From IMG/VR virus record IMGVR_UViG_3300050014_000310, positions 62,001-126,000 of that record: a stretch of 64,000 nt of DNA. The stretch is one strand, 5' to 3'. The translations under genes and the position numbers were made by a program. This DNA comes from a virus. Within the stretch, counting starts at the first letter, position 1; the number at the start of each line of letters is the position of its first letter. The notes beneath the pieces were generated by a model that did not search any database, was not told where the DNA came from, and saw only the letters and a program-made list of their open reading frames with translations. Below, in pieces: positions 5,435-64,000 of this stretch.

Positions 5435-6057
5435 CTAAGCCATCCCAGCGCCCTTTGCCGCATCGATTCCCCGTGCCTCATTCTCGCTTTGCACGGTCAT
5501 GACTTCCAGGATATCCAGCAGATCATCTAGATCGTATGTGCCGTCAGACAATTCCTTCTGTCTCCAGTGCCCGGCGATAACCGGCGCAAACATCCATGCT
5601 GCTACGTTTGGACACTCGGCGACTTCGTAAGTAACCCCTCGGGGAGTAAAGCTGAGAGGGCGCCTGGCGAAAAACCCGACAGGTTGAAAACGAGCGCCTG
5701 CACCATTAGCGCCAGGCAGGTCATGGCATCATCGTCCAGGCCAATGACGCCAAGATGCCCCTCGGGATTTAACACCTGTATTTCGCCGCCAGACAGGATC
5801 TCGAAGCAAACCCTCAGAGATTTGTTCTGGATGTCAACGAAATCAGCCTCTGACAACTTCGACAAAGCCCCTAAAACTGGTGATATGATTTGGCTGATCT
5901 CAATCCCCTGGTTCGTTGCAAGCATGTCAAACACTGGGGCCAGGATCCCTGCCACCTTGATCGCGATGAAACCGCCTGTCTGGGCAGGAAACTTTCTGAG
6001 ACGGAACTGCCTGCCGCCTAGTCCAATATCTTTGAATTTTGGTCGTATATCTTCCAT
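5435..6057 (-). CDS. Tail assembly chaperone, -1 frameshift product (GT type)
   Basis: The zero-frame chaperone contains the heptamer GGGTTTT at 5677-5671, in the correct X-XXY-YYZ phase. Slipping -1 there bypasses the stop at 5602 and continues through an open frame to TAG at 5435, giving about 207 residues. The added part reads 'LSFTPRGVTYEVAECPNVAA' then 'WMFAPVIAGHWRQ' and 'GTYDLDDLLDILE', which looks like real protein. Programmed frameshifting between these two genes, just upstream of the tape measure, is conserved in tailed phages (lambda G/GT). The T part recruits tail tube subunits to the tape measure. Confidence 0.8.
5602..6057 (-). CDS. Tail assembly chaperone, short form (G type)
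   Basis: 151 residues from ATG 6057, chosen because GGAGG lies eight bases upstream; the frame is open to 6084. It contains 'KDIGLGGRQFRLRKFP' and 'GLDDDAMTCLALM'. The short form ends at TAG 5602 and should be the major product; a minority of ribosomes shift at 5677-5671. Both forms act in the cytoplasm to keep the tape measure in solution and are normally absent from virions. Confidence 0.82.
   Translation of the reverse strand: MEDIRPKFKDIGLGGRQFRLRKFPAQTGGFIAIKVAGILAPVFDMLATNQGIEISQIISPVLGALSKLSEADFVDIQNKSLRVCFEILSGGEIQVLNPEGHLGVIGLDDDAMTCLALMVQALVFNLSGFSPGALSALLPEGLLTKSPSVQT
5671..5677 (-). promoter_or_regulatory. -1 frameshift slippery site GGGTTTT
   Basis: The zero frame reads TCG GGT TTT TCG, so tRNAs on GGT and TTT can re-pair on GGG and TTT after slipping back one base. 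The position, about 25 codons before the zero-frame stop and upstream of the tape measure, is typical of tail chaperone genes. I did not identify a definite downstream pseudoknot. Confidence 0.75.
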
Positions 6058-6092
6058 CGTTTTAAGCCTCCGCTTTGAATACAATTTAATTG

Positions 6093-6737
6093 TTATGCTT
6101 GTTTCCCATGACCTTCTTGAATTGGCTGTGCAATTGCTTTTTCAAATGGCCAGCCATTGCTAACGCGATAATACAATTGCGTAAAAGTTAAGCCATACTG
6201 TATTGCCCATTCTATCAAACATTTTGTTTGCCCATTATGTGTAATAAGGTGATTAGCGCTCGTATTTCTGGCTTGTTCTTGCATCGTTGCCCATCGACAA
6301 TTTTCTGGAGAATAACCTTTATCGTTATTTTTTCTATCAATAGTTAAGTCATCTCTATAGCCATGAGAAAGTGCCCAAGAAACAAACGCTTCTGCATCGT
6401 GAAACCATTCTTGACAAATTGTTATTCCTCGACCACCATAACGATCATAGCTTTTATGCTTTGTATTGCAGCATCTTCCTTTTAAATCTGCCCAAATTCT
6501 ATAAACACGTAAATAAGATAATCTATGTTTTATGCATTTAACTTGGTCAACTTCTTTTTTGTAACAACCACAACTCTTAGACTTTCCTCTTCTAAGATCA
6601 ACGGAAACAACAACAGTTGCATTTCCACAATCACAGTTGCATAGCCATTTAAAGTTATTGTTAATATCCTTACCTTCTGGCCTTATTGCAGTTAATCTGC
6701 CAAACCTTTGCCCTGTAATGTCAATAAATTTCCCCAT
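6093..6737 (-). CDS. Free-standing HNH homing endonuclease (copy 1)
   Basis: 214 residues. The N terminus 'MGKFIDITGQRFGRLTA' followed by Cys residues (CNCDCGN, SCGCYK) is a small zinc-binding domain shared with the genes at 12528 and 22243. The core has 'YDRYGGRGITICQEW' and 'TIDRKNNDKGYSPENCRWAT', the HNH beta-beta-alpha metal nuclease motif of phage homing enzymes. The C terminus is probably a DNA-binding module. It is inserted between tail tube and tail chaperone genes in the same direction and contributes nothing obvious to the virion. AT-rich relative to its neighbours, supporting recent arrival. ATG follows ACGGAGGTGTCTTTCT. Confidence 0.9.
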   Translation of the reverse strand: MGKFIDITGQRFGRLTAIRPEGKDINNNFKWLCNCDCGNATVVVSVDLRRGKSKSCGCYKKEVDQVKCIKHRLSYLRVYRIWADLKGRCCNTKHKSYDRYGGRGITICQEWFHDAEAFVSWALSHGYRDDLTIDRKNNDKGYSPENCRWATMQEQARNTSANHLITHNGQTKCLIEWAIQYGLTFTQLYYRVSNGWPFEKAIAQPIQEGHGKQA

Positions 6738-6839
6738 AGAAAGACACCTCCGTAGTGTTTAATGCTGTTCCGATTAAATAAAATTTGCGGGAAACAGATT
6801 CGGAATGTCTGCTTTCGGGTGGCCGCCCTATCCCGCAAA
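6738..6839 (-). ncRNA. Candidate structured RNA leader of HNH gene, copy 1
   Basis: On the minus strand a 9-bp outer stem (6831-6839 with 6784-6792) encloses 38 bases that start TAGGGC and contain a smaller hairpin. It is followed by AAACACTAC and the HNH ribosome binding site. The same arrangement precedes the HNH gene at 22243, where a C-G pair of the outer stem is replaced by T-A. It starts about six bases after the tail tube stop codon. Function unknown: perhaps translational control, or part of the homing unit. Confidence 0.55.
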
Positions 6840-6844
6840 AATGG

Positions 6845-7264
6845 TTATGATTGGAACATATTTTCCGCGAGTACCGTCCAAGTTACAAGTTGTCCCTGGG
6901 CCTGGTACGGCAAATCCGCCCTCTTCTGAAAGGCGCACCCCGTGCATTGGTTATTGTCACCCATGACCGCGCTGTCCGCCGTAATGGTCAACTGGTTCCA
7001 TTCCGCAGGGTTACCTTTGAGGTAGTTGTATAGGCCCTGCAACCATTTATGAAACGCCGATGTCTGCTGAATCGCTATGGCAATCGAACCGTTCTCGCCT
7101 TCAACATCACTTGTCATAACACGGCCATCCGCCGCCACGTCCTGTACTGTACGATCCGTCGCCATACTGAAGGTGATCGTTCCAAGGCCGGAACCGGTAG
7201 CAATGTACTGCCCATAAGCTGGATGCGAAAACACGGTCTGGAGATCCTTGAAGCTATAGATCAT
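6845..7264 (-). CDS. Tail tube protein (DUF3277-like)
   Basis: 139 residues, full length for the family. 'YSFKDLQTVFSHP', 'TDRTVQDVAADGRVMTSD' and 'CTGCAFQKRADLPYQAQG' match the DUF3277 phage protein pattern, a beta-rich tube protein of contractile tails. It lies between sheath and tail chaperone, where the tube gene belongs. It would polymerise into the inner tube ejecting DNA. ATG follows AAAGGAGTATATAACCA, a strong site fitting a highly expressed structural gene. Confidence 0.8.
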   Translation of the reverse strand: MIYSFKDLQTVFSHPAYGQYIATGSGLGTITFSMATDRTVQDVAADGRVMTSDVEGENGSIAIAIQQTSAFHKWLQGLYNYLKGNPAEWNQLTITADSAVMGDNNQCTGCAFQKRADLPYQAQGQLVTWTVLAENMFQS

Positions 7265-7287
7265 TGGTTATATACTCCTTTCCCAGA

Positions 7288-7312
7288 ATTGAAAAAGCCC
7301 TGACCGAAACTG
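7288..7312 (-). terminator. Hairpin with T run between sheath and tube genes
   Basis: Minus-strand arms GCTCTG and CAGGGC pair (one G-U) and are followed by TTTTT. It probably attenuates rather than blocks late transcription, since the tube gene downstream needs the same mRNA unless a promoter lies between. Confidence 0.55.
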
Positions 7313-7364
7313 CCAGAGCCACAACCCTAATTTGTTCCCAATAGGGGATGCCGCTAATTTGTTC

Positions 7365-8882
7365 CTACATCGGCACCTGGACCGCGATCACGATCCCCTG
7401 AATGGCCCCGGCCAGACAAGGTATCACGTAGATCGGCGGAGATATCCGGGCGCCCTTATTCGCGGAGCTCTGTGAAGCAATCGTCGCCGACAGTACCAGA
7501 TATCCCTCGCTCAGCGTATCGCCGGTGTTCAGCGTCGTAGCTCCAATGGTCAAAGGCGGCCCATCCCAGGTGCCTGGAGCCAGGAACCCAGTCGTGACAG
7601 CGCTCTCCAGCGGGACCTTGATCCCGTTCCTCAATAGCGTCATGCCGCCTTCAGTGTAGGGAATCTTCTGGCTACCAGTTTTCAAATTCATCACGGCAGT
7701 GGCAATCTGGCTCACCAGTTGATCCAGCCCCAAAACTTCGTCAAACCACATGCCGTTGGCCATCGTGCCGTTTTCAAAAACGGTATAGGTGTTGTTGTAG
7801 GTAGCCACGAAGTTGACGTTATCGCCGCCAACGCCATCTACACCAACGAAAATGGCCGCCTGAGCCTCAGTCAACGGCTCCGGGGTCACCCCGGTTATCA
7901 CCTTGTCAGCCAGGGCAAAGGAGCTATTGGCTGTGCCCGTGTTGGACCCCATAGCGTAGCCCATAGCCCCGACTACGGCGTTTGGCGTCTGGGTGCTGTA
8001 CTGCGTCAAGGTACGCATATAATTGGCATCCATTAAGGCCAGGGCAACAGAACCTACGCCATCGGTGTTAGTCGCTCCATTGGCCGCCCCCAGTTTCAGC
8101 GCAGCCGCCAGGTCATTAGTCGCGCCGTTGACAATCCTGATTCTTGACAATGGTCCGGATGTTGCCGAGGTGACGAGGTAGACCCCACCGGTGAATGCCA
8201 CAGTCACGGCAGCATAGGCGCCACCCAGCGCTTGAATAGCAGCCTGCAGCGCAGAGGCAACCAATGCCCCAGTGTTGAGCCCGGTAACGCTCGTCAGGGT
8301 AACAGCGTGGTAGGTCGGAGTCAGGCCGTAGACATCGGCGTCAACAGCAATCTGCAGCGTAGTCTGGCTGCCAGCAGAGATGTTCGTACTTGGTGATGCC
8401 GCGCCGATCTGATACCCGGCTGCCAGGGCTGTGCTGGCGAGTACCGCGGCATCGGCGGTCGTGACAAAATGCTGCGCCGCCGGCTGGCAACTGTTCACGT
8501 AGGCGGAGATCATCAAGATATCCTGAGCGGATGCGCCGCACACGGACACCAGATACCAGTTGGGGTTTAGCGATCGGCAGGCCTGGACCGCGGCCAGCGC
8601 AGTTTCCGTTGAGCTGTTCCACCGGCCAATGACTACCTGAGTGGGCTGCGGAGTCTGCCCGAAGTAGATCTCAGCCGCTAGGTATTCCGGGCTGGTCAAA
8701 GAGAACCCATCGGCGGTCATGCCGTTGGTGCTCGAATAGGCGCGGGTGCGATCAAGCGACGTTCCGGCAATAATTGAAGATGTGCCGACGATCAAGCCCT
8801 GGTTGAAGCTTGGCCCGACTGCCGAGGACGGAGAGATGACTACTGAAATCTGGATGATGTCGTTCAGGTTTAATGTACTCAC
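7365..8882 (-). CDS. Contractile tail sheath protein (DUF3383-like)
   Basis: 505 residues. The N terminus 'IIQISVVISPSSAVGPSFNQ' with 'GTSSIIAGTSLDRTRAYSS' and the C-terminal half ('DGVGGDNVNFVATYNN', 'GMWFDEVLGLDQLVSQI') fit the DUF3383 sheath family of myoviruses. Residues about 150-262 look inserted: this Ala/Thr-rich beta module recurs in the virion protein at 20335-21138. GTG start after GAGGTGAATATTTAAC. The sheath surrounds the tube and contracts at infection. Confidence 0.85.
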   Translation of the reverse strand: MSTLNLNDIIQISVVISPSSAVGPSFNQGLIVGTSSIIAGTSLDRTRAYSSTNGMTADGFSLTSPEYLAAEIYFGQTPQPTQVVIGRWNSSTETALAAVQACRSLNPNWYLVSVCGASAQDILMISAYVNSCQPAAQHFVTTADAAVLASTALAAGYQIGAASPSTNISAGSQTTLQIAVDADVYGLTPTYHAVTLTSVTGLNTGALVASALQAAIQALGGAYAAVTVAFTGGVYLVTSATSGPLSRIRIVNGATNDLAAALKLGAANGATNTDGVGSVALALMDANYMRTLTQYSTQTPNAVVGAMGYAMGSNTGTANSSFALADKVITGVTPEPLTEAQAAIFVGVDGVGGDNVNFVATYNNTYTVFENGTMANGMWFDEVLGLDQLVSQIATAVMNLKTGSQKIPYTEGGMTLLRNGIKVPLESAVTTGFLAPGTWDGPPLTIGATTLNTGDTLSEGYLVLSATIASQSSANKGARISPPIYVIPCLAGAIQGIVIAVQVPM

Positions 8883-8920
8883 GTTAAATATTCACCTCGC
8901 TTTCTGGAAATTCAGGGCAA

Positions 8921-16505: not shown

Positions 16506-17231
16506 CTACATACCGGCAAGCCAATTCACTTTCAGTTTAGCGCCGGCTGCCGAGAACTCCAGGTTGTACGATGATCCGGCCATGATCGACAGATCCGATG
16601 TGAAGCTCGGGACATTGGCTGCCATGCTTGCCGCCAGTTTGATTGGGATGCCATCCTGCTTCAGCCACAAATCCCCTGCGGTATCGGACGTCACCATCAG
16701 GCGGGACCGCGTATTCATCGGGGAGACCCAGGGATTCTGCGCCCCTGCGGCTGTCTGCAGGATGCCCACGTCTGTGCCCTGGGCGGCAACGGCCCCTGCG
16801 GTCAGCTTCAGGGTAGACACAGCGATGTCCGTCGAAGTGCTTAATACCGTGGCGCCTGGCGTCACTACGACCTGGGATGCGCTGCTCTTGAGAGCGGATG
16901 TGATGACGTACTTGGAACTGGTGTAGGCGCAGGTAGCCGTCTTGTAGCTGGCCGGGACTCCGGTTAAAGCCTGCATCACGGACTGAATCTCACCGGCGAT
17001 GGCCGCTCCGGTGGCATCGGTGTTGGTGAGGACGATGTTTCGCGGGGTCGGGTCCCCGTCAAGCTGGATGTTGAAGTTCGGACCAGTAATGCCCGACAAG
17101 GTGGTGGCTGGGCTGGCCGCGGAAGTCAGAGTTCCAGCGGTAGCTGACCCTGAAGCAGTACCGACGACGAAGGTGCCATTGGCAATGGGAAAACCAACTT
17201 GCCTTACAATTTGAAGATTAGCGTCTGGCAA
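16506..17231 (-). CDS. Virion surface protein, Ala/Thr/Ser-rich
   Basis: 241 residues of predicted beta structure from a TTG start with AAAGGAGG eight bases upstream. The middle (about 35-150: 'FNIQLDGDPTPRNIVLTNTD', 'TGAAIAGEIQSVMQALTGVP') resembles the repeated module in the sheath and the 20335 protein, though more distantly. The C terminus ('AGDLWLKQDGIPIKLAASM', 'SIMAGSSYNLEFSAAGAKLK') resembles the end of that same protein. Probably a head or fibre decoration. Confidence 0.6.
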   Translation of the reverse strand: MPDANLQIVRQVGFPIANGTFVVGTASGSATAGTLTSAASPATTLSGITGPNFNIQLDGDPTPRNIVLTNTDATGAAIAGEIQSVMQALTGVPASYKTATCAYTSSKYVITSALKSSASQVVVTPGATVLSTSTDIAVSTLKLTAGAVAAQGTDVGILQTAAGAQNPWVSPMNTRSRLMVTSDTAGDLWLKQDGIPIKLAASMAANVPSFTSDLSIMAGSSYNLEFSAAGAKLKVNWLAGM

Positions 17232-17648: not shown

Positions 17649-17804
17649 TCAGGGCGTATCAGGCGGATCATTTTGCGGCGGTAAATCTACCACCTCAACC
17701 CCATAGTAGATATAATCACCCTCGTCAACCGGAGCTAACTGAATTACCATCTGAGTTTCCTGATCAAAATCAGGAATCGGAGCGTACACGTTTGGCCCTG
17801 GCAT
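17649..17804 (-). CDS. Small hypothetical protein (51 aa)
   Basis: Translation begins 'MPGPNVYAPIPDFDQETQM' and ends 'PPQNDPPDTP'. ATG 17804 is preceded by AGGTGGTGAGTAGAC. It is acidic and proline-rich, of unknown function. It lies on the same strand as the late genes and is followed by a terminator. Confidence 0.6.
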   Translation of the reverse strand: MPGPNVYAPIPDFDQETQMVIQLAPVDEGDYIYYGVEVVDLPPQNDPPDTP

Positions 17805-17828: not shown

Positions 17829-17857
17829 TTGATTTTTTCTGTATTTTCCTCTATAAT
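17829..17857 (+). promoter_or_regulatory. Sigma-70-type promoter for the HNH gene at 17893
   Basis: TTGATT (17829-17834) and a perfect TATAAT (17852-17857) are separated by 17 bases, followed after 35 bases by the plus-strand HNH gene. It points against the late operon, so the endonuclease is likely expressed independently. Confidence 0.75.
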
Positions 17858-17892: not shown

Positions 17893-18528
17893 ATGGATAT
17901 GGCTTTTTGCTCCCACTGCAATACAGCGCATCCTGTGCCGCCCATAGGAACCCAAAATAAATATTGGCGTTGGCAAAGAAATAAATCCCTAAAAAACGGT
18001 GGTTATTTTGTATGCCAAAAATGGTATAAAAGTTATCAGCTAAACTATAAAAGAACAAAAGATGGATGGATAAGAATAACATATCTTACTCAAAGGAAAT
18101 CTTCCAAAGCCCGTAAACATCCTATGCCAAGTTATACATTTGAAGAGTTTAAGCAATGGGCATTTTCCCAATCTGAATTTGATACATTATTTGATGGCTG
18201 GATGAGCAACAATTACATTCAAGATTTAAGACCATCTGTAGATAGAATTAGTGATGATAAACCATATACCCTGGACAACATTCAGTTAATGACATTTAAA
18301 GAAAACCGCTTAGCTGGAGTGCGTGGGAGCAAAGCCCACAAAGCTTATGATAGAGTAAACTCCCTTCAAGGTCTTAAGGTGTATCAATATACACTGGACA
18401 ACAAACTTATTGCTTCTTACAAAAGTAGTCATGTTGCTTCTAAAATTACGGGGGTAGATTCTTCATCAATTAACAAATGTTGCAACGGCAAGCTTAAAAC
18501 TGCGGGTGGTTTCAAGTGGTGTCACTAA
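17893..18528 (+). CDS. HNH homing endonuclease with NUMOD1-type DNA-binding tail
   Basis: 211 residues. An N-terminal zinc-type pair (FCSHCN) precedes a central HNH-like nuclease region ('LRPSVDRISDDKPYTLDNIQ'). A C-terminal NUMOD1-like helix-turn-helix module follows ('VYQYTLDNKLIASYKSSHVA', 'ITGVDSSSINKCCNG', 'AGGFKWCH'). It is on the opposite strand to all surrounding late genes, is AT-rich, and has its own promoter and AGGTGA ribosome site. Its stop lies about 50 bases from the DGR template repeat, where a DGR reverse transcriptase would normally be, so the insertion may have displaced DGR genes. Confidence 0.85.
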   Translation: MDMAFCSHCNTAHPVPPIGTQNKYWRWQRNKSLKNGGYFVCQKWYKSYQLNYKRTKDGWIRITYLTQRKSSKARKHPMPSYTFEEFKQWAFSQSEFDTLFDGWMSNNYIQDLRPSVDRISDDKPYTLDNIQLMTFKENRLAGVRGSKAHKAYDRVNSLQGLKVYQYTLDNKLIASYKSSHVASKITGVDSSSINKCCNGKLKTAGGFKWCH

Positions 18529-18575
18529 TCAGCGGTGAGGAATATGGGGCGCAAAATCTATTTGTTTACGCTAAT

Positions 18576-18685
18576 AAGAGTCTGCCTGCCGATGTTGACG
18601 TTGGTGTTCCCTGACGAATTGTTCAGATTCCAGTACGAGAAACCTGCATTCGACCTGTTGTTCCAGTTACCACTGAGTAAGGCAA
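18576..18685 (-). repeat. DGR template repeat (TR)
   Basis: Non-coding copy of the 3' end of the 18735-20330 gene. With an offset of 174 bases, positions 18581-18685 align to 18755-18859 without gaps. Of 31 coding-strand adenines in this copy 27 differ in the gene; all 74 other bases are identical. Changes are 20 A to G, 6 A to T and 1 A to C. The TR translates as 'GNWNNRSNAGFSYWNLNNSS', rich in the AAC/AAT codons that mark DGR templates. The RNA from this repeat would be reverse-transcribed with adenine errors and copied into the VR. Confidence 0.95.
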
Positions 18686-18710
18686 GCCGCACCCCATATC
18701 CCTTGATATT

Positions 18711-18726
18711 GGGGGCTAACGCCCCC
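18711..18726 (-). repeat. GC-rich hairpin downstream of VR (DGR homing structure)
   Basis: GGGGGC (18711-18716) and GCCCCC (18721-18726) are perfect complements around a four-base loop, nine bases beyond the target gene's stop. Short GC-rich hairpins or cruciforms with four-base loops just 3' of the VR are known to stimulate DGR homing. No T run follows on the coding strand, so a terminator is less likely. Confidence 0.75.
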
Positions 18727-18734
18727 AAACCCCC

Positions 18735-20330
18735 CTAAAGAGCTTTTCTAAGAAGCCGCCCGCCGACGTAGACGACGGTGAACCCCGACGAACCGTACAG
18801 ACCCCAGCACGAGAAACCCGCACCCGACCCGACGCCCCAGTCACCACCGAGCAAGGCAATATACTGGCCGCTCGAATTCTGGTAATAGTAGTCCGAGTAG
18901 TACGTCGAACTGCTACCACCTCCTGTCACCGGGAATTCTGCTTCTGGGTTGGCAGGATCGTATCCCATCGCTGAAGCCCAGTCATTAATGCCGTAGTTGG
19001 CATACGCAAGCTTTAGGTATGGGCTAGCAAACACGTTGCTGGCATACGATGCCGCGTTTTGGCATATCCATGCCTGATCATTGTTGACGTTTAGCCCGTC
19101 TACAAACTGCCAGATATCACCCCAGGGCGATTCAATTCCACGATAACAGCACGGTTGCAATCCACTTAAATTACTAACAGGGCTGCCACTCGATGCTGCT
19201 ATGCCAGACGAGAATCCGTTTTTCCAGCCAACATTGTACAGCATGTTGCCGATAGCGATATTGACCGCCGCACCATCGAAAACGATTGCCTTATCCCCAG
19301 CATCATACGTATTAATAGCGGTGATTGTACGCCCGTAGCATACTTGATTTCCGCCCTGGGTTGTGCCGATACCGATAGGCTGACCTACCGCATATAACGC
19401 AGCGGTGGCGTTGGCGACGACTATCTGATTGCCATTTGTCGTGGCGAAGGTCGCCAGATGCGTTGCAGTGTATTGACCGTTTGCCCAGCCCTGCATAATC
19501 GCCTGACTATTCAGCGTGGCAAACTCGATGTAAAACAATGTTTGCAGCATGTCTACAACGTGTATATCTAGTTGCTGATACCCATTTGTCCCGGCAACCC
19601 CAGTATTGTTGGCCTTAGCAAATGTACGGAAGTTGACGATAGTATCGTTGATATACGGAAAACCGCCGGAGACAGACTGCAATTTGCCACCGCTGACTGA
19701 GGCTTTGTATTTGCCCACGTCGATGTAGGGCAATTCAGTGCCGGTAGTGAAGTTCCAAAAACATTGAGGCAGGTAATAGCCAGAATAATTGGTTTTCGAG
19801 ACCTGCCAGGTTTTATAGCCTACGCCATCAGTTTTCTTGATATAGAACTTGGGGATGCGGATAAATGTATTTCCATGGGTATCGGTTACCTGCGTAATTT
19901 CTCCAAATATCGGGAGGCTATCAAAGTTATTTGTAGGGGTAGATCCATCCACGCCAGCATTTGCGACTAGCCCGACCGCCGAATCGGTTCTCGTCATGGT
20001 TGGATTCGATCCCTTATTCCAGGACACGCCCCAGACACGCGGATCTGTAAACGTGAACTGATCCGCTAAACCAGTCGCGCTGGTAGTGATTACAGTAATG
20101 TCTACTTCCGTACTGGCTGTGCCCGCTGGTGCTACCGCGGTAATCGAAGTTGACGAATTGACTGTAAATGATGTTGCAGGAGTAGTACCAAAATAAACAT
20201 TCTCTACCCCGACAAAACCTGTTCCAGCGATAACGACTGATGTTCCTCCAGTAGAAATGCCACCTTCCGGACTTATGCCCGTCACCACCTGGGGAGCACT
20301 TGCTAATTTTGTGCCGCCGAAGAAGCCCAT
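18735..20330 (-). CDS. DGR-diversified fibre/adhesin protein, IPT/TIG plus C-type-lectin-like fold
   Basis: 531 residues from ATG 20330, chosen because AAGGAGGG precedes it; the frame is open further. Residues about 17-95 are an IPT/TIG Ig-like domain ('GGISTGGTSVVIAGTGFVG', 'NVYFGTTPAT'). A middle region follows ('IPKFYIKKTDGVGYKTW'), then a C-terminal formylglycine-enzyme/C-type-lectin-like domain ('CCYRGIESPWGDIWQFVDGL', 'YYYQNSSGQYIALLGGDWG', ending 'GGRLLRKAL'). This is the usual fold of DGR targets, which tolerates a variable binding face. The last 36 codons form the VR. Likely a receptor-binding or head-decorating adhesin; it sits among head genes rather than after the baseplate. Confidence 0.9.
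   Translation of the reverse strand: MGFFGGTKLASAPQVVTGISPEGGISTGGTSVVIAGTGFVGVENVYFGTTPATSFTVNSSTSITAVAPAGTASTEVDITVITTSATGLADQFTFTDPRVWGVSWNKGSNPTMTRTDSAVGLVANAGVDGSTPTNNFDSLPIFGEITQVTDTHGNTFIRIPKFYIKKTDGVGYKTWQVSKTNYSGYYLPQCFWNFTTGTELPYIDVGKYKASVSGGKLQSVSGGFPYINDTIVNFRTFAKANNTGVAGTNGYQQLDIHVVDMLQTLFYIEFATLNSQAIMQGWANGQYTATHLATFATTNGNQIVVANATAALYAVGQPIGIGTTQGGNQVCYGRTITAINTYDAGDKAIVFDGAAVNIAIGNMLYNVGWKNGFSSGIAASSGSPVSNLSGLQPCCYRGIESPWGDIWQFVDGLNVNNDQAWICQNAASYASNVFASPYLKLAYANYGINDWASAMGYDPANPEAEFPVTGGGSSSTYYSDYYYQNSSGQYIALLGGDWGVGSGAGFSCWGLYGSSGFTVVYVGGRLLRKAL
18750..18859 (-). repeat. DGR variable region (VR)
   Basis: Final segment of the adhesin gene, copy of the TR at 18576-18685 with changes only at template adenines. 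Template Asn codons have become Asp, Gly, Val, Tyr, Phe and others. Exact identity begins at TTGCC on the 5' side (18859). On the 3' side it ends near CGGCTTCTTA, where TR and VR diverge at non-adenine bases, as at initiation-of-mutagenic-homing sequences. Confidence 0.95.
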
Positions 20331-20334
20331 ATGG

Positions 20335-21138
20335 TTAGCCCTCCTTCGCTGTGAAGGTGTGCCCGGTAGTAGCAGCAATGACGGAAATTAACTCGGTTTC
20401 GACGTAATTTCCATCCATGACAAATCCATTTCCGGGGGTCAATTCTATTGACGGTTCTCCGACAACCGCGCCTGTTCCGAACCTGAACCAGAGCGATTCC
20501 GTAGCCGCCGATGGATTCTGTATCAGGAAATAGTTTCGGTTAGAATTGGCTGCTGCTAATTGCTGAGCCGCGCCCCCTGTTGTGATAGTTCCGCTTCTGT
20601 CGGTGAGGGCTCCTTTTACTGCTATACTCCCAGAGATCGCGACAGGCAGCCCCGAGATCTTCCCATCCGTATCAACGGCCCCGTTCGCCGCTCCAACCTT
20701 CAACGCCGCCGCCAGATCACTATACCCCGACGTTGCAGTCCCTGCCGTGATCCGTATTTTCGACCCCGGCCCAACCGCACCCGAAGTCGTGACATACACC
20801 CCGCCTACGTAGGCAAACGTAATGCCCGCATAGGTGACGCCACCAACCCTCTGGATCGCCGATTGAACCGCAGCCGCTATCAGCAAACCAGTGGTCAATC
20901 CGGCCACGTTGACAACGACATTATGAACATTCCCGTTAACTGCATCGGCATCGGCAGAAATGTTGAAGTTGACGATCCCGGTCAGAGCCGAAACGTTGGT
21001 GCTCGGTGAAGAAGCGCCGGTCTCATAGCCTGTAGAGCAGATCGATTCCAGGAAGTTGGCGATGTTAAATGTGCCGCCGTATTCGTCGAGAATGCGGCCG
21101 GTATTCGGGGGTATATTATTGACTGTGGGGTTTGGCAT
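20335..21138 (-). CDS. Virion surface protein with repeated beta module
   Basis: 267 residues from ATG 21138 (GAGGTGG eight bases upstream). Residues about 38-155 repeat a module also inserted in the tail sheath ('AADADAV'-like strand, 'GLTTGLLIAAAVQSAIQRVG', 'DLAAALKVGAANGAVDTDG'). The C-terminal 100 residues ('SNRNYFLIQNPSAATESLWF', 'SIELTPGNGFVMDG') match a common phage structural ending. The stop is four bases before the DGR target ATG, so the two are translationally coupled; it may be the mount or partner of that adhesin. Confidence 0.65.
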   Translation of the reverse strand: MPNPTVNNIPPNTGRILDEYGGTFNIANFLESICSTGYETGASSPSTNVSALTGIVNFNISADADAVNGNVHNVVVNVAGLTTGLLIAAAVQSAIQRVGGVTYAGITFAYVGGVYVTTSGAVGPGSKIRITAGTATSGYSDLAAALKVGAANGAVDTDGKISGLPVAISGSIAVKGALTDRSGTITTGGAAQQLAAANSNRNYFLIQNPSAATESLWFRFGTGAVVGEPSIELTPGNGFVMDGNYVETELISVIAATTGHTFTAKEG

Positions 21139-21298
21139 GGGGATAACCACCTCTCCTGTGCTTGTATTTGGCGTTCCAGCCCTTTTAACAAACTGTACCT
21201 AATGTTGAGGATATCATTTAAGGATAATGACAACCGACAACACCTCGATTAAGCTACTTGATGCGCGGATAATTTCAGGAAACCAGCCAGCATACAAA

Positions 21299-61533: not shown

Positions 61534-64000
61534 TGCGACAATCCCCCTACCCGCTGTATTATCTGTTGCATGATCTGCTGCTGCCTCTGTTTCAGCGCAG
61601 TAGCAGTCTGATCCTTCTGGGCCTGGGATAGTGTCTTGCTGCCCTGCACATTCTGGATCGCCTTGGTGAGAGCTCCCATCTGTGTGGCCACCTTATCCAC
61701 CGATTTCGCCAGACCAGGGTTATAGTCTTTGGACTTGACACCCTTCTGCTTAAAATCGGCCACAGACTGGTCCAGCTTTGTTTTCAGGTTGTAGAAGTTG
61801 TTGTCCACATCATTCGCTTTGGATGGATCGGCAATCAGGTCTGTCTGCAATGTCTTAGCCGGGTTCAATACCTGAGTCAAGACACCGCCGTAAGACTGAG
61901 CTAAATAGTCTATGTTCTTCGGGGCAATAGCGCTGTAGCCCCGTAAAGGGGTTTTATTCAATTCCCCGCCGAGCCAATTAGCGGCAGCGGTGTCGCTCTT
62001 GTCTCCCTGAAGTCCCGGGGACAGAGAGGACAATTTCTGGGATACAATCGGGCCTCCTGAATAGGATTTGTTTGCCCACACCTGAAACAATGGATCGAAG
62101 ATGGTGCTCACGTCGAGCGGTAGGAGAACCTTGCCGATCTGCCCGTACCAGTCATCTAATTGCTTCGGGTCCTGCTTGTCTATCGCCGTTATGATGTGCT
62201 CAGGTATGGTCGAGAAAAGAAGGCCCCACGCCTTGGGCTTCTCGATCTTGATGAACTTATTAGGGATACCGTTTGCATCCCGAGAAGCATAATCGGGAAC
62301 ACAATAGTAATTATCCTTATCGCTCTGTGAGAGGCCGGGGATGTTTCTTTTGGGATCGCCAACATAGTAGGGGTTGTTCCTGTTCGCCCCATACGTCAGC
62401 ATTTGGCCTACGGTTAAAAGAGCAATCGCGCCGCCGATTGTTTGGGCAGGGCGCGAGATAAGCGATCTTGCCATCGCGTCCACACCTTGAATCCCGGCAT
62501 TGACGAACATCCCGCCGATGTTCCCAAACTGAAATTCTCCATGTCTTCCGAAGTTGATTCCTAATGCCTGAGTTTCAGCGAAAGCCTTTTCCGTTCCTGC
62601 GCCCGAAGCGAGCTGCCTTTTGAACTCAGCCAGCCGCGCCGTGTTGGTCAGGGTCGTATTTACCTTTGTTATGATCTGCTTTGCCGTGGTCGATACTTTT
62701 CCGCCCAGGGCTCTCTTCGCAGGGTTGAGGTCTTCAAACGTATCCTGGTTGCCTGAAAACCCTTGCTTGCCGCCGCCCAATGCTTTGAACTCGGCGAGGT
62801 CGTCGGTGTCGTTTCCGAAGTTCCCTTTCATCACTTCCCCGAAGGCTTTGACGAACTGGAAAGGATATCGCGCCCAATCCACCGGGTTTAGCTGATTAAT
62901 CGTCTTACTGGTCAGGAAATACCCAGGCTGTTCAATCGCCGGCTGTTTCAAAAGAGTAAAGAACGTGTTGAATCCGGCCTGGAGATTGGACGCCAGGTGC
63001 GTTCCCCTGGAGACTACCCTGAGGAAGCTGGGCACTTGCTCCGGCGCGAGATGTCTGACTGTGTTTCTCATTTCAGTGTTGTCAATCTTCATCGCTACGG
63101 CTTTACCGTTTACCCTGGTCGTCCATGTATTCCCGTGTTTTTGGATGAACTGGTCCTCTTCTTCCCGGTCTTTCTCGTCGGTCTCATCGCCCATCGCTTT
63201 GGCGGGGTCTTCGTGCATCTCGTCGGAATCCCTGATCGCTTTCGTTCCCGCTTCCCTTGCCGCCATCTCGTTTTTGGGATCGGACGCCAGCCGAATGCCT
63301 AGTTCGTTCACTTCTTTGGGATACTGCTGAAGGTCGTTGTAGACCGAGCCGGAGAGCTTATTGTCCATCGCCCTTCTGGTCGTTCTCAGGATTGAGTCCT
63401 GAATAGCGTAGAAGTGAGACTGCAAAGGTCGTTCCGATCCGGTAAATCTCATACCCAGGGCGTGGGTCTCGGTCTCTGCCGCTCCATGAACACGGTAGAA
63501 TGGAGTGTACGCGGGATCACCCTTTTCCATGTTTGCCCACGTTTTTTCCGAGACGAGTCCGGTATCTACCATCCAGGCCTTGCCCCATGTTCGGTTCCAT
63601 GAATAATACTGATCGGCTCTTGCTTTGAAATCGGGGTGTTGCTTTTCAAATTCATCGATTATTGCCTGGACCTTAGCAGAGGACGTCTTGTTGATCTCTT
63701 TCACGTTTTCCCTAGCCTTGTCGTAGGCGTCTTGGTATGTCTGGATAATAGCGGGGTCTTCTTTGTCATCCTTGACCTTATCCAATGCTTCCTTTGCGCT
63801 GTCCACTGAGGCGGTATCTTCTTCGTCTGCCGGAGCGAGACCGTAGCTTTTAGGATAGACCGCTTGCCCCTTTGCTACCTTATAGACGGCCCTCTTCGCC
63901 GTCAAATAATCTTCCCAATCCTTAACATCCTCTTTCGGCATATCCAGCACGGAAGCGAGGGAAGGGAGTGGGTTGCCACCTACATCGGATAGGATCTTTC
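61530..64000 (-). CDS. LPD38-type large polyvalent protein (5' end beyond window)
   Basis: At least 823 residues; the frame stays open to the window edge ('ILSDVGGNPLPSLASVLDMP'), so the start lies outside. 'NLQAGFNTFFTLLKQPAIEQ' and 'AMARSLISRPAQTIGGAIAL' fit the large polyvalent-protein-associated LPD38 domain, found in giant phage and ICE proteins delivered into hosts. A hydrophobic segment lies near the middle ('AQTIGGAIALLTVGQMLTYG') and coiled coils near both ends. Probably an ejected internal virion protein. Confidence 0.75.
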   Translation of the reverse strand, partial: KILSDVGGNPLPSLASVLDMPKEDVKDWEDYLTAKRAVYKVAKGQAVYPKSYGLAPADEEDTASVDSAKEALDKVKDDKEDPAIIQTYQDAYDKARENVKEINKTSSAKVQAIIDEFEKQHPDFKARADQYYSWNRTWGKAWMVDTGLVSEKTWANMEKGDPAYTPFYRVHGAAETETHALGMRFTGSERPLQSHFYAIQDSILRTTRRAMDNKLSGSVYNDLQQYPKEVNELGIRLASDPKNEMAAREAGTKAIRDSDEMHEDPAKAMGDETDEKDREEEDQFIQKHGNTWTTRVNGKAVAMKIDNTEMRNTVRHLAPEQVPSFLRVVSRGTHLASNLQAGFNTFFTLLKQPAIEQPGYFLTSKTINQLNPVDWARYPFQFVKAFGEVMKGNFGNDTDDLAEFKALGGGKQGFSGNQDTFEDLNPAKRALGGKVSTTAKQIITKVNTTLTNTARLAEFKRQLASGAGTEKAFAETQALGINFGRHGEFQFGNIGGMFVNAGIQGVDAMARSLISRPAQTIGGAIALLTVGQMLTYGANRNNPYYVGDPKRNIPGLSQSDKDNYYCVPDYASRDANGIPNKFIKIEKPKAWGLLFSTIPEHIITAIDKQDPKQLDDWYGQIGKVLLPLDVSTIFDPLFQVWANKSYSGGPIVSQKLSSLSPGLQGDKSDTAAANWLGGELNKTPLRGYSAIAPKNIDYLAQSYGGVLTQVLNPAKTLQTDLIADPSKANDVDNNFYNLKTKLDQSVADFKQKGVKSKDYNPGLAKSVDKVATQMGALTKAIQNVQGSKTLSQAQKDQTATALKQRQQQIMQQIIQRVGGLSQ

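Follow-up and report, generated by a model that had tools for sequence, protein, structure and literature searches.

The window analysed here is a stretch of 64,000 nucleotides of a viral contig of 128,693 bases (IMG/VR record IMGVR_UViG_3300050014_000310, positions 62,001 to 126,000 of that record). The locus of interest lies for the most part on its minus strand. It begins with a target gene (18735..20333, minus strand), whose 3' end is a variable repeat (VR; 18755..18859, minus strand) with the last 10 nt, GGCGGGCGGC, as its IMH-side end. A hairpin (18709..18728, minus strand), with an 8-bp GC-rich stem (TTGGGGGC/GCCCCCAA) and the 4-nt loop GTTA, stands 26 nt after the VR, and an intact, non-coding template repeat (TR; 18581..18685, minus strand), ending in the IMH* sequence GGCAGGCAGA, lies downstream of the target ORF. 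Beyond the TR come 51 nt of the 5' part of a spacer (18531..18581, minus strand), cut inside a conserved CACCNCTTGGTG hairpin (CACC/GGTG); then a homing-endonuclease-type gene on the strand opposite to the cassette (17893..18528, plus strand); and finally a small gene of 51 aa (17649..17804, minus strand).

A preliminary description of this DNA had presented the two repeats as those of a diversity-generating retroelement (DGR). Their coordinates, their gap-free alignment (offset 174 on the minus strand) and the distribution of differences were all reproduced exactly: VR and TR differ at 27 of 31 template adenines (20 G, 6 T, 1 C) and agree at each of the 74 other positions, and the chance that all 27 mismatches fall on A would be about 3.6e-21 if mismatches were random. 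Three of the 27 must nevertheless be reassigned. The last three A differences (GGCAGGCAGA in the TR, GGCGGGCGGC in the VR) are found again, fixed between TR and VR, in almost every relative, and they are therefore differences between IMH* and IMH and not the result of mutagenesis. Without the last 10 nt, 24 of 24 mismatches fall on 28 adenines (chance about 1e-18), with 18 changes to G, 6 to T, none to C and 4 adenines unchanged, in keeping with the earlier remark that the VR has gone mostly from A to G. In the family of related loci described below, the pooled spectrum of the other distinct pairs that come with a reverse transcriptase (RT) is 217 G, 145 T, 91 C and 242 unchanged, that is G 48%, T 32% and C 20%. 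The G share of the window (18:6:0) is above that of the family (Fisher p = 0.011, uncorrected for the singling out of the window locus); one relative, L048, has a similar lean (17:2:3), and the lean of the window to G is within the range of single loci. The TR had also been called rich in Asn codons and, read in the target frame, it has Asn at 10 of 34 codons; the VR encodes another residue than the TR at 16 of the 34. The contig holds this one TR and this one VR, with no second copy of either.

The target gene encodes a protein with an N-terminal IPT/TIG (Ig-like) domain, a conserved fibre-like middle and a C-terminal C-type-lectin-like domain that ends in the VR. Its ORF extends to 20378 if started at a TTG, and an ATG (...HMGFFGG...) is found at about 20330. 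The protein matches the tail-protein family phrog_5302. A first structure model, built from 10 sequences, was too poor for use (pLDDT 34); the model from 27 homologues reached pLDDT 67, with the lectin part weaker. TaqVP, the variable protein of a Thermus aquaticus DGR (PDB 5vf4), is the only significant solved match to this model (E 2e-6) and the best solved fold match to the target, while the match to its C-terminal sequence is weak. The VR is thus predicted to lie in a ligand-binding domain of the C-type-lectin type, modelled with low confidence, as the preliminary description had proposed. The Ig-like domain that it reported is the IPT/TIG domain, which is absent from the aligned target relatives and has been added N-terminally in the target of the window; in this, and in being a phage virion-type protein, the target differs from TaqVP.

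About 30 distinct related phage and prophage loci were found by searches with the target, with spacer motifs and in bacterial genomes. They share one order: target with VR, GC-rich hairpin, TR, a spacer of about 120 nt, RT and a 74-aa protein. In almost every relative whose locus is complete, the RT directly follows the TR; it has about 352 aa with the motifs YVDD and IGxxxSQ, and its best solved relative is the reverse transcriptase series of PDB 8ub7, which we take to be the BPP-1 bRT series. Close relatives in named genomes belong to Bacillota (L061-L065, from Salirhabdus, Alkalihalobacillus and Bacillus). Near relatives of the window phage itself were not found among viral contigs with a degenerate TR search (A as N). 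Active diversification is visible in two of the relatives, L047 and L054, which have an identical TR and 20 VR differences, all at template adenines, and RT-bearing relatives have 0-2 non-A mismatches between TR and VR. At one reversed locus (L085, about 1184) both RT and spacer are present, a gap-free alignment of TR and VR fails, with 21 mismatches outside adenines, and the target frame has a different end; an indel in the VR may be the cause.

The TR/VR pair of the window is genuinely DGR-made, and TR, VR, IMH and hairpin together show that the DGR was once active. In fact, the substitutions are confined to template adenines, the IMH GGCGGGCGGC at the VR end differs from the IMH* GGCAGGCAGA at the TR end as it does in the relatives, and the hairpin after the VR is intact and of the same kind as theirs; the DGR of phage BPP-1 requires a hairpin at this place (PMC3240598). 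The lectin target like TaqVP and the same plan in the related loci speak for the same origin.

The spacer is the first part that the window has kept incompletely. Twenty-eight spacers of the family (for example at L007:1858-1978) align on a structure of three helices, one of them closing (ACUCUUAUUAG/CUAAUAAGA) and one a CACC/GGUG hairpin. The RNA has 21 predicted pairs, of which 7 show changes on both sides, and 99.3% of cells are paired; the covariation measures were equalled in 0 of 500 shuffles, and slides of the register came nowhere near them. An Rfam scan, run on the window only, gave no match. The BPP-1 spacer is what recruits bRT-Avd, and the adenine that primes cDNA comes from it as well (PMC12875486); by analogy the family spacer would be the same functional part. 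Of the roughly 120 nt of this structured RNA the window retains no more than the first 51: homology begins at 18581 and breaks off at 18531 in one relative after another. A search of the contig with the spacer model found no full or second copy.

The second missing part is the RT. None was found in the window or in the whole contig, either with Pfam RVT_1 or with tblastn and HMM searches using the family's own RTs, and the same RVT_1 search found the RT in 7 of 8 relatives. A hidden or remnant RT was sought in six frames with BLAST and unfiltered HMM searches, which returned noise only. A DGR-clade RT, present in most relatives, is hence absent from this contig, which is linear, shows no terminal overlap as a sign of completeness and may be incomplete, so that sequence outside the contig, or the host, could hold an RT.

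What is found instead is the homing-endonuclease-type gene, which fills exactly the stretch where the relatives have the 3' part of the spacer and then the RT. The spacer hairpin borders it on one side and a 5'-truncated form of the small gene on the other; the small gene encodes a homologue of the 74-aa protein found immediately after the RT in the relatives and has lost about 23 N-terminal codons. The endonuclease gene has an open frame of 211 aa, intact over both an endonuclease VII-like nuclease domain and a NUMOD1 DNA-binding domain, and matches phrog_1035 (endonuclease VII); copies in named phages are about 29-41% identical. Its stop codon is 2 nt from the junction with spacer homology (18528/18531), a junction known from one assembled contig. 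Insertion beside a conserved site is consistent with homing, an activity that we infer from the sequence. No group I intron or other Rfam RNA was detected around the gene. A promoter-like site (TTGATT-17-TATAAT; 17829..17857, plus strand) stands upstream of it, and such sites are no commoner in this region than by chance. Relatives of the endonuclease were traced at four other loci, none of them beside the window's target or RT family. The gene is of the same type as the free-standing endonuclease-VII/NUMOD homing endonucleases of phages, such as F-CphI (PMC6083498). No report of a homing endonuclease in the place of the RT of a DGR appears in the titles and abstracts of the open-access papers searched.

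The preliminary description was therefore right in recognizing a DGR-made TR/VR pair, and its reading has to be amended in that the RT and most of the spacer RNA are absent, with a homing endonuclease gene in their place. Because two of the DGR requirements that we tested, the RT and a complete spacer RNA, are lacking, there are no grounds to call the element a working DGR, and we file it as a DGR-derived, RT-less variant. DGRscan and myDGR, recommended in that description as a check, look for the RT first and would probably miss it.

Three other members of the family are without an RT. In L087 (2689-2800) the TR is kept, spacer and RT are cleanly deleted, the small gene lies within about 60 nt of the TR, and TR and VR show 5 non-A mismatches in 75. 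L061 (7380-7460; a prophage-like locus in a Bacillota MAG) is a decayed DGR: its TR ends after about 68 nt, there is one non-A mismatch, the hairpin is damaged, and the RT was not found in its whole MAG. In L006 the VR and the hairpin are present, and TR and RT are absent from its 40.8-kb record. One common origin of all RT-less members was considered and rejected, since on the target tree the RT-less label needs three changes, with well-supported branches forcing at least two, and L006 is a near sister of an RT-bearing locus. As these three relatives have lost the RT in other ways than the window element, disarming recurs in the family.

The window element is, in our judgement, probably a recently disarmed DGR of a Bacillota-phage family, in which the RT and the 3' domain of the RNA were replaced by a homing endonuclease gene and which is left with one frozen receptor-binding variant. 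In the earlier state, TR RNA would have been copied into A-mutagenised cDNA and written into the VR. An invading homing endonuclease gene may then have cleaved the DNA at the conserved hairpin of the spacer or close to it, after which repair against a donor, or imprecise repair, may have replaced the RT-bearing segment. As the RT is gone and the spacer is needed in BPP-1 for RT recruitment and cDNA priming, mutagenic retrohoming should have stopped; the system would now be silent, with the binding protein left as its last variant. The loss of the RT would be recent, as TR and VR carry no ordinary mutations and too little time would have passed for them. The causal role of the endonuclease in the deletion is suggested by its position, and the RT may have gone first and the gene been inserted later.

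The absence of non-A mismatches, which sets a 95% upper bound of 4% on divergence, is a sign of either recent loss or continued action in trans, and active elements show the same. A working DGR in trans, in which the TR and VR of the window are still used with an RT, and possibly a full spacer RNA, provided by a co-infecting phage, a host prophage or an unassembled part of the genome, would agree with this lack of decay, with the intact hairpin and with a contig that may be incomplete. We regard it as unlikely, because the TR transcript of the window would lack the 3' domain of the spacer, on which BPP-1 depends for recruiting the RT complex and for priming cDNA (PMC12875486), the RT stands directly after the TR in nearly all complete relatives and the contig offers no second spacer copy. 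It seems very unlikely that the element is a non-autonomous DGR, still diversified with an RT that a prophage or a co-infecting phage provides, and that the endonuclease meanwhile propagates by taking the place of RT genes in this family.

An artefact of assembly, with two strains joined or the endonuclease gene mis-assembled and an RT in the real phage, deserves thought for a metagenome-type record known from one contig. The endonuclease gene is flanked by TR and spacer and, at its other end, by the small gene, all from one cassette, which makes a chimera unlikely; moreover, the frame of the gene is open, synteny with L021 and L034 extends past the cassette to the adjoining head genes, p241 and DUF2213, and three other members lack the RT by other routes, so that little probability remains for this explanation. 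The adenine-specific divergence might have arisen by chance or by another process, such as an adenine deaminase, and 18 of 24 mutagenised sites have indeed changed from A to G; but editing of the deaminase type was rejected on the six A-to-T changes and the family-wide spectrum, and the A-only pattern recurs in about 30 homologous loci with RT, next to a lectin target, IMH and hairpin that are all present here. We give such origins almost no credence.

Compared with known systems, the disarmed element resembles the BPP-1 DGR (bRT/Avd, TR, mtd VR) in its A-specific TR/VR differences, in a GC-rich hairpin with a 4-nt loop after the VR and in a lectin-type target. It differs in being without the RT and the spacer 3' part and in its hairpin loop (GTTA against GRNA in BPP-1), and its family has the order VR-TR-RT, where no avd was seen in the interval from VR to RT. 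The same target and RT families are found in Lactobacillus phage LBR48 and in Bacillaceae prophages (Salirhabdus L063, Alkalihalobacillus L064), whose DGRs keep the RT where the window has the homing endonuclease gene.

Surveys of DGRs usually start from the RT, and RT-less elements are therefore largely invisible to them. The family described here forms a graded series from active through freshly disarmed and decayed to erased elements, in which non-adenine TR/VR mismatches can serve as a clock of the time since inactivation. Whether and how often phages give up the hypermutation of a receptor-binding protein becomes testable in this way, and the family points towards homing endonucleases as one agent of DGR disarming. 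The covarying spacer RNA of 28 phage DGRs is also a second system, beside BPP-1, in which the engagement of DGR RNA with RT can be studied.

The genome around the cassette is that of a contractile-tailed phage, as had been stated, with a tail sheath gene at 7365-8882 (E 1e-69). The position of the target among head genes, which had been contrasted with a place beside the baseplate, is also correct and is normal for the family: the gene lies between those for a Mu F-like head protein and for DUF2213 and the major head protein, with the portal gene nearby, and in the relative L008 the target, RT and small gene are followed by connector-like genes. In the same slot L034 has no cargo and L021, which of the long phage records has the closest portal protein, has other cargo; there (5610-8910), judged by eye from translations, are a large secreted-hydrolase-like protein, an acyltransferase-like gene and a tyrosine-recombinase-like gene, and this looks like a variable cargo slot. 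The cassette region is flanked by p271 (20335-21150) and p241 (16506-17231), both on the minus strand, which are mutually similar and match the same L021 gene; these two neighbours of the cassette may be duplicates, coding for head or decoration proteins. A second endonuclease gene, of the HNH type (phrog_374, E 4e-68), lies at 6093-6737 on the minus strand, between the tape-measure-like and tail sheath genes.
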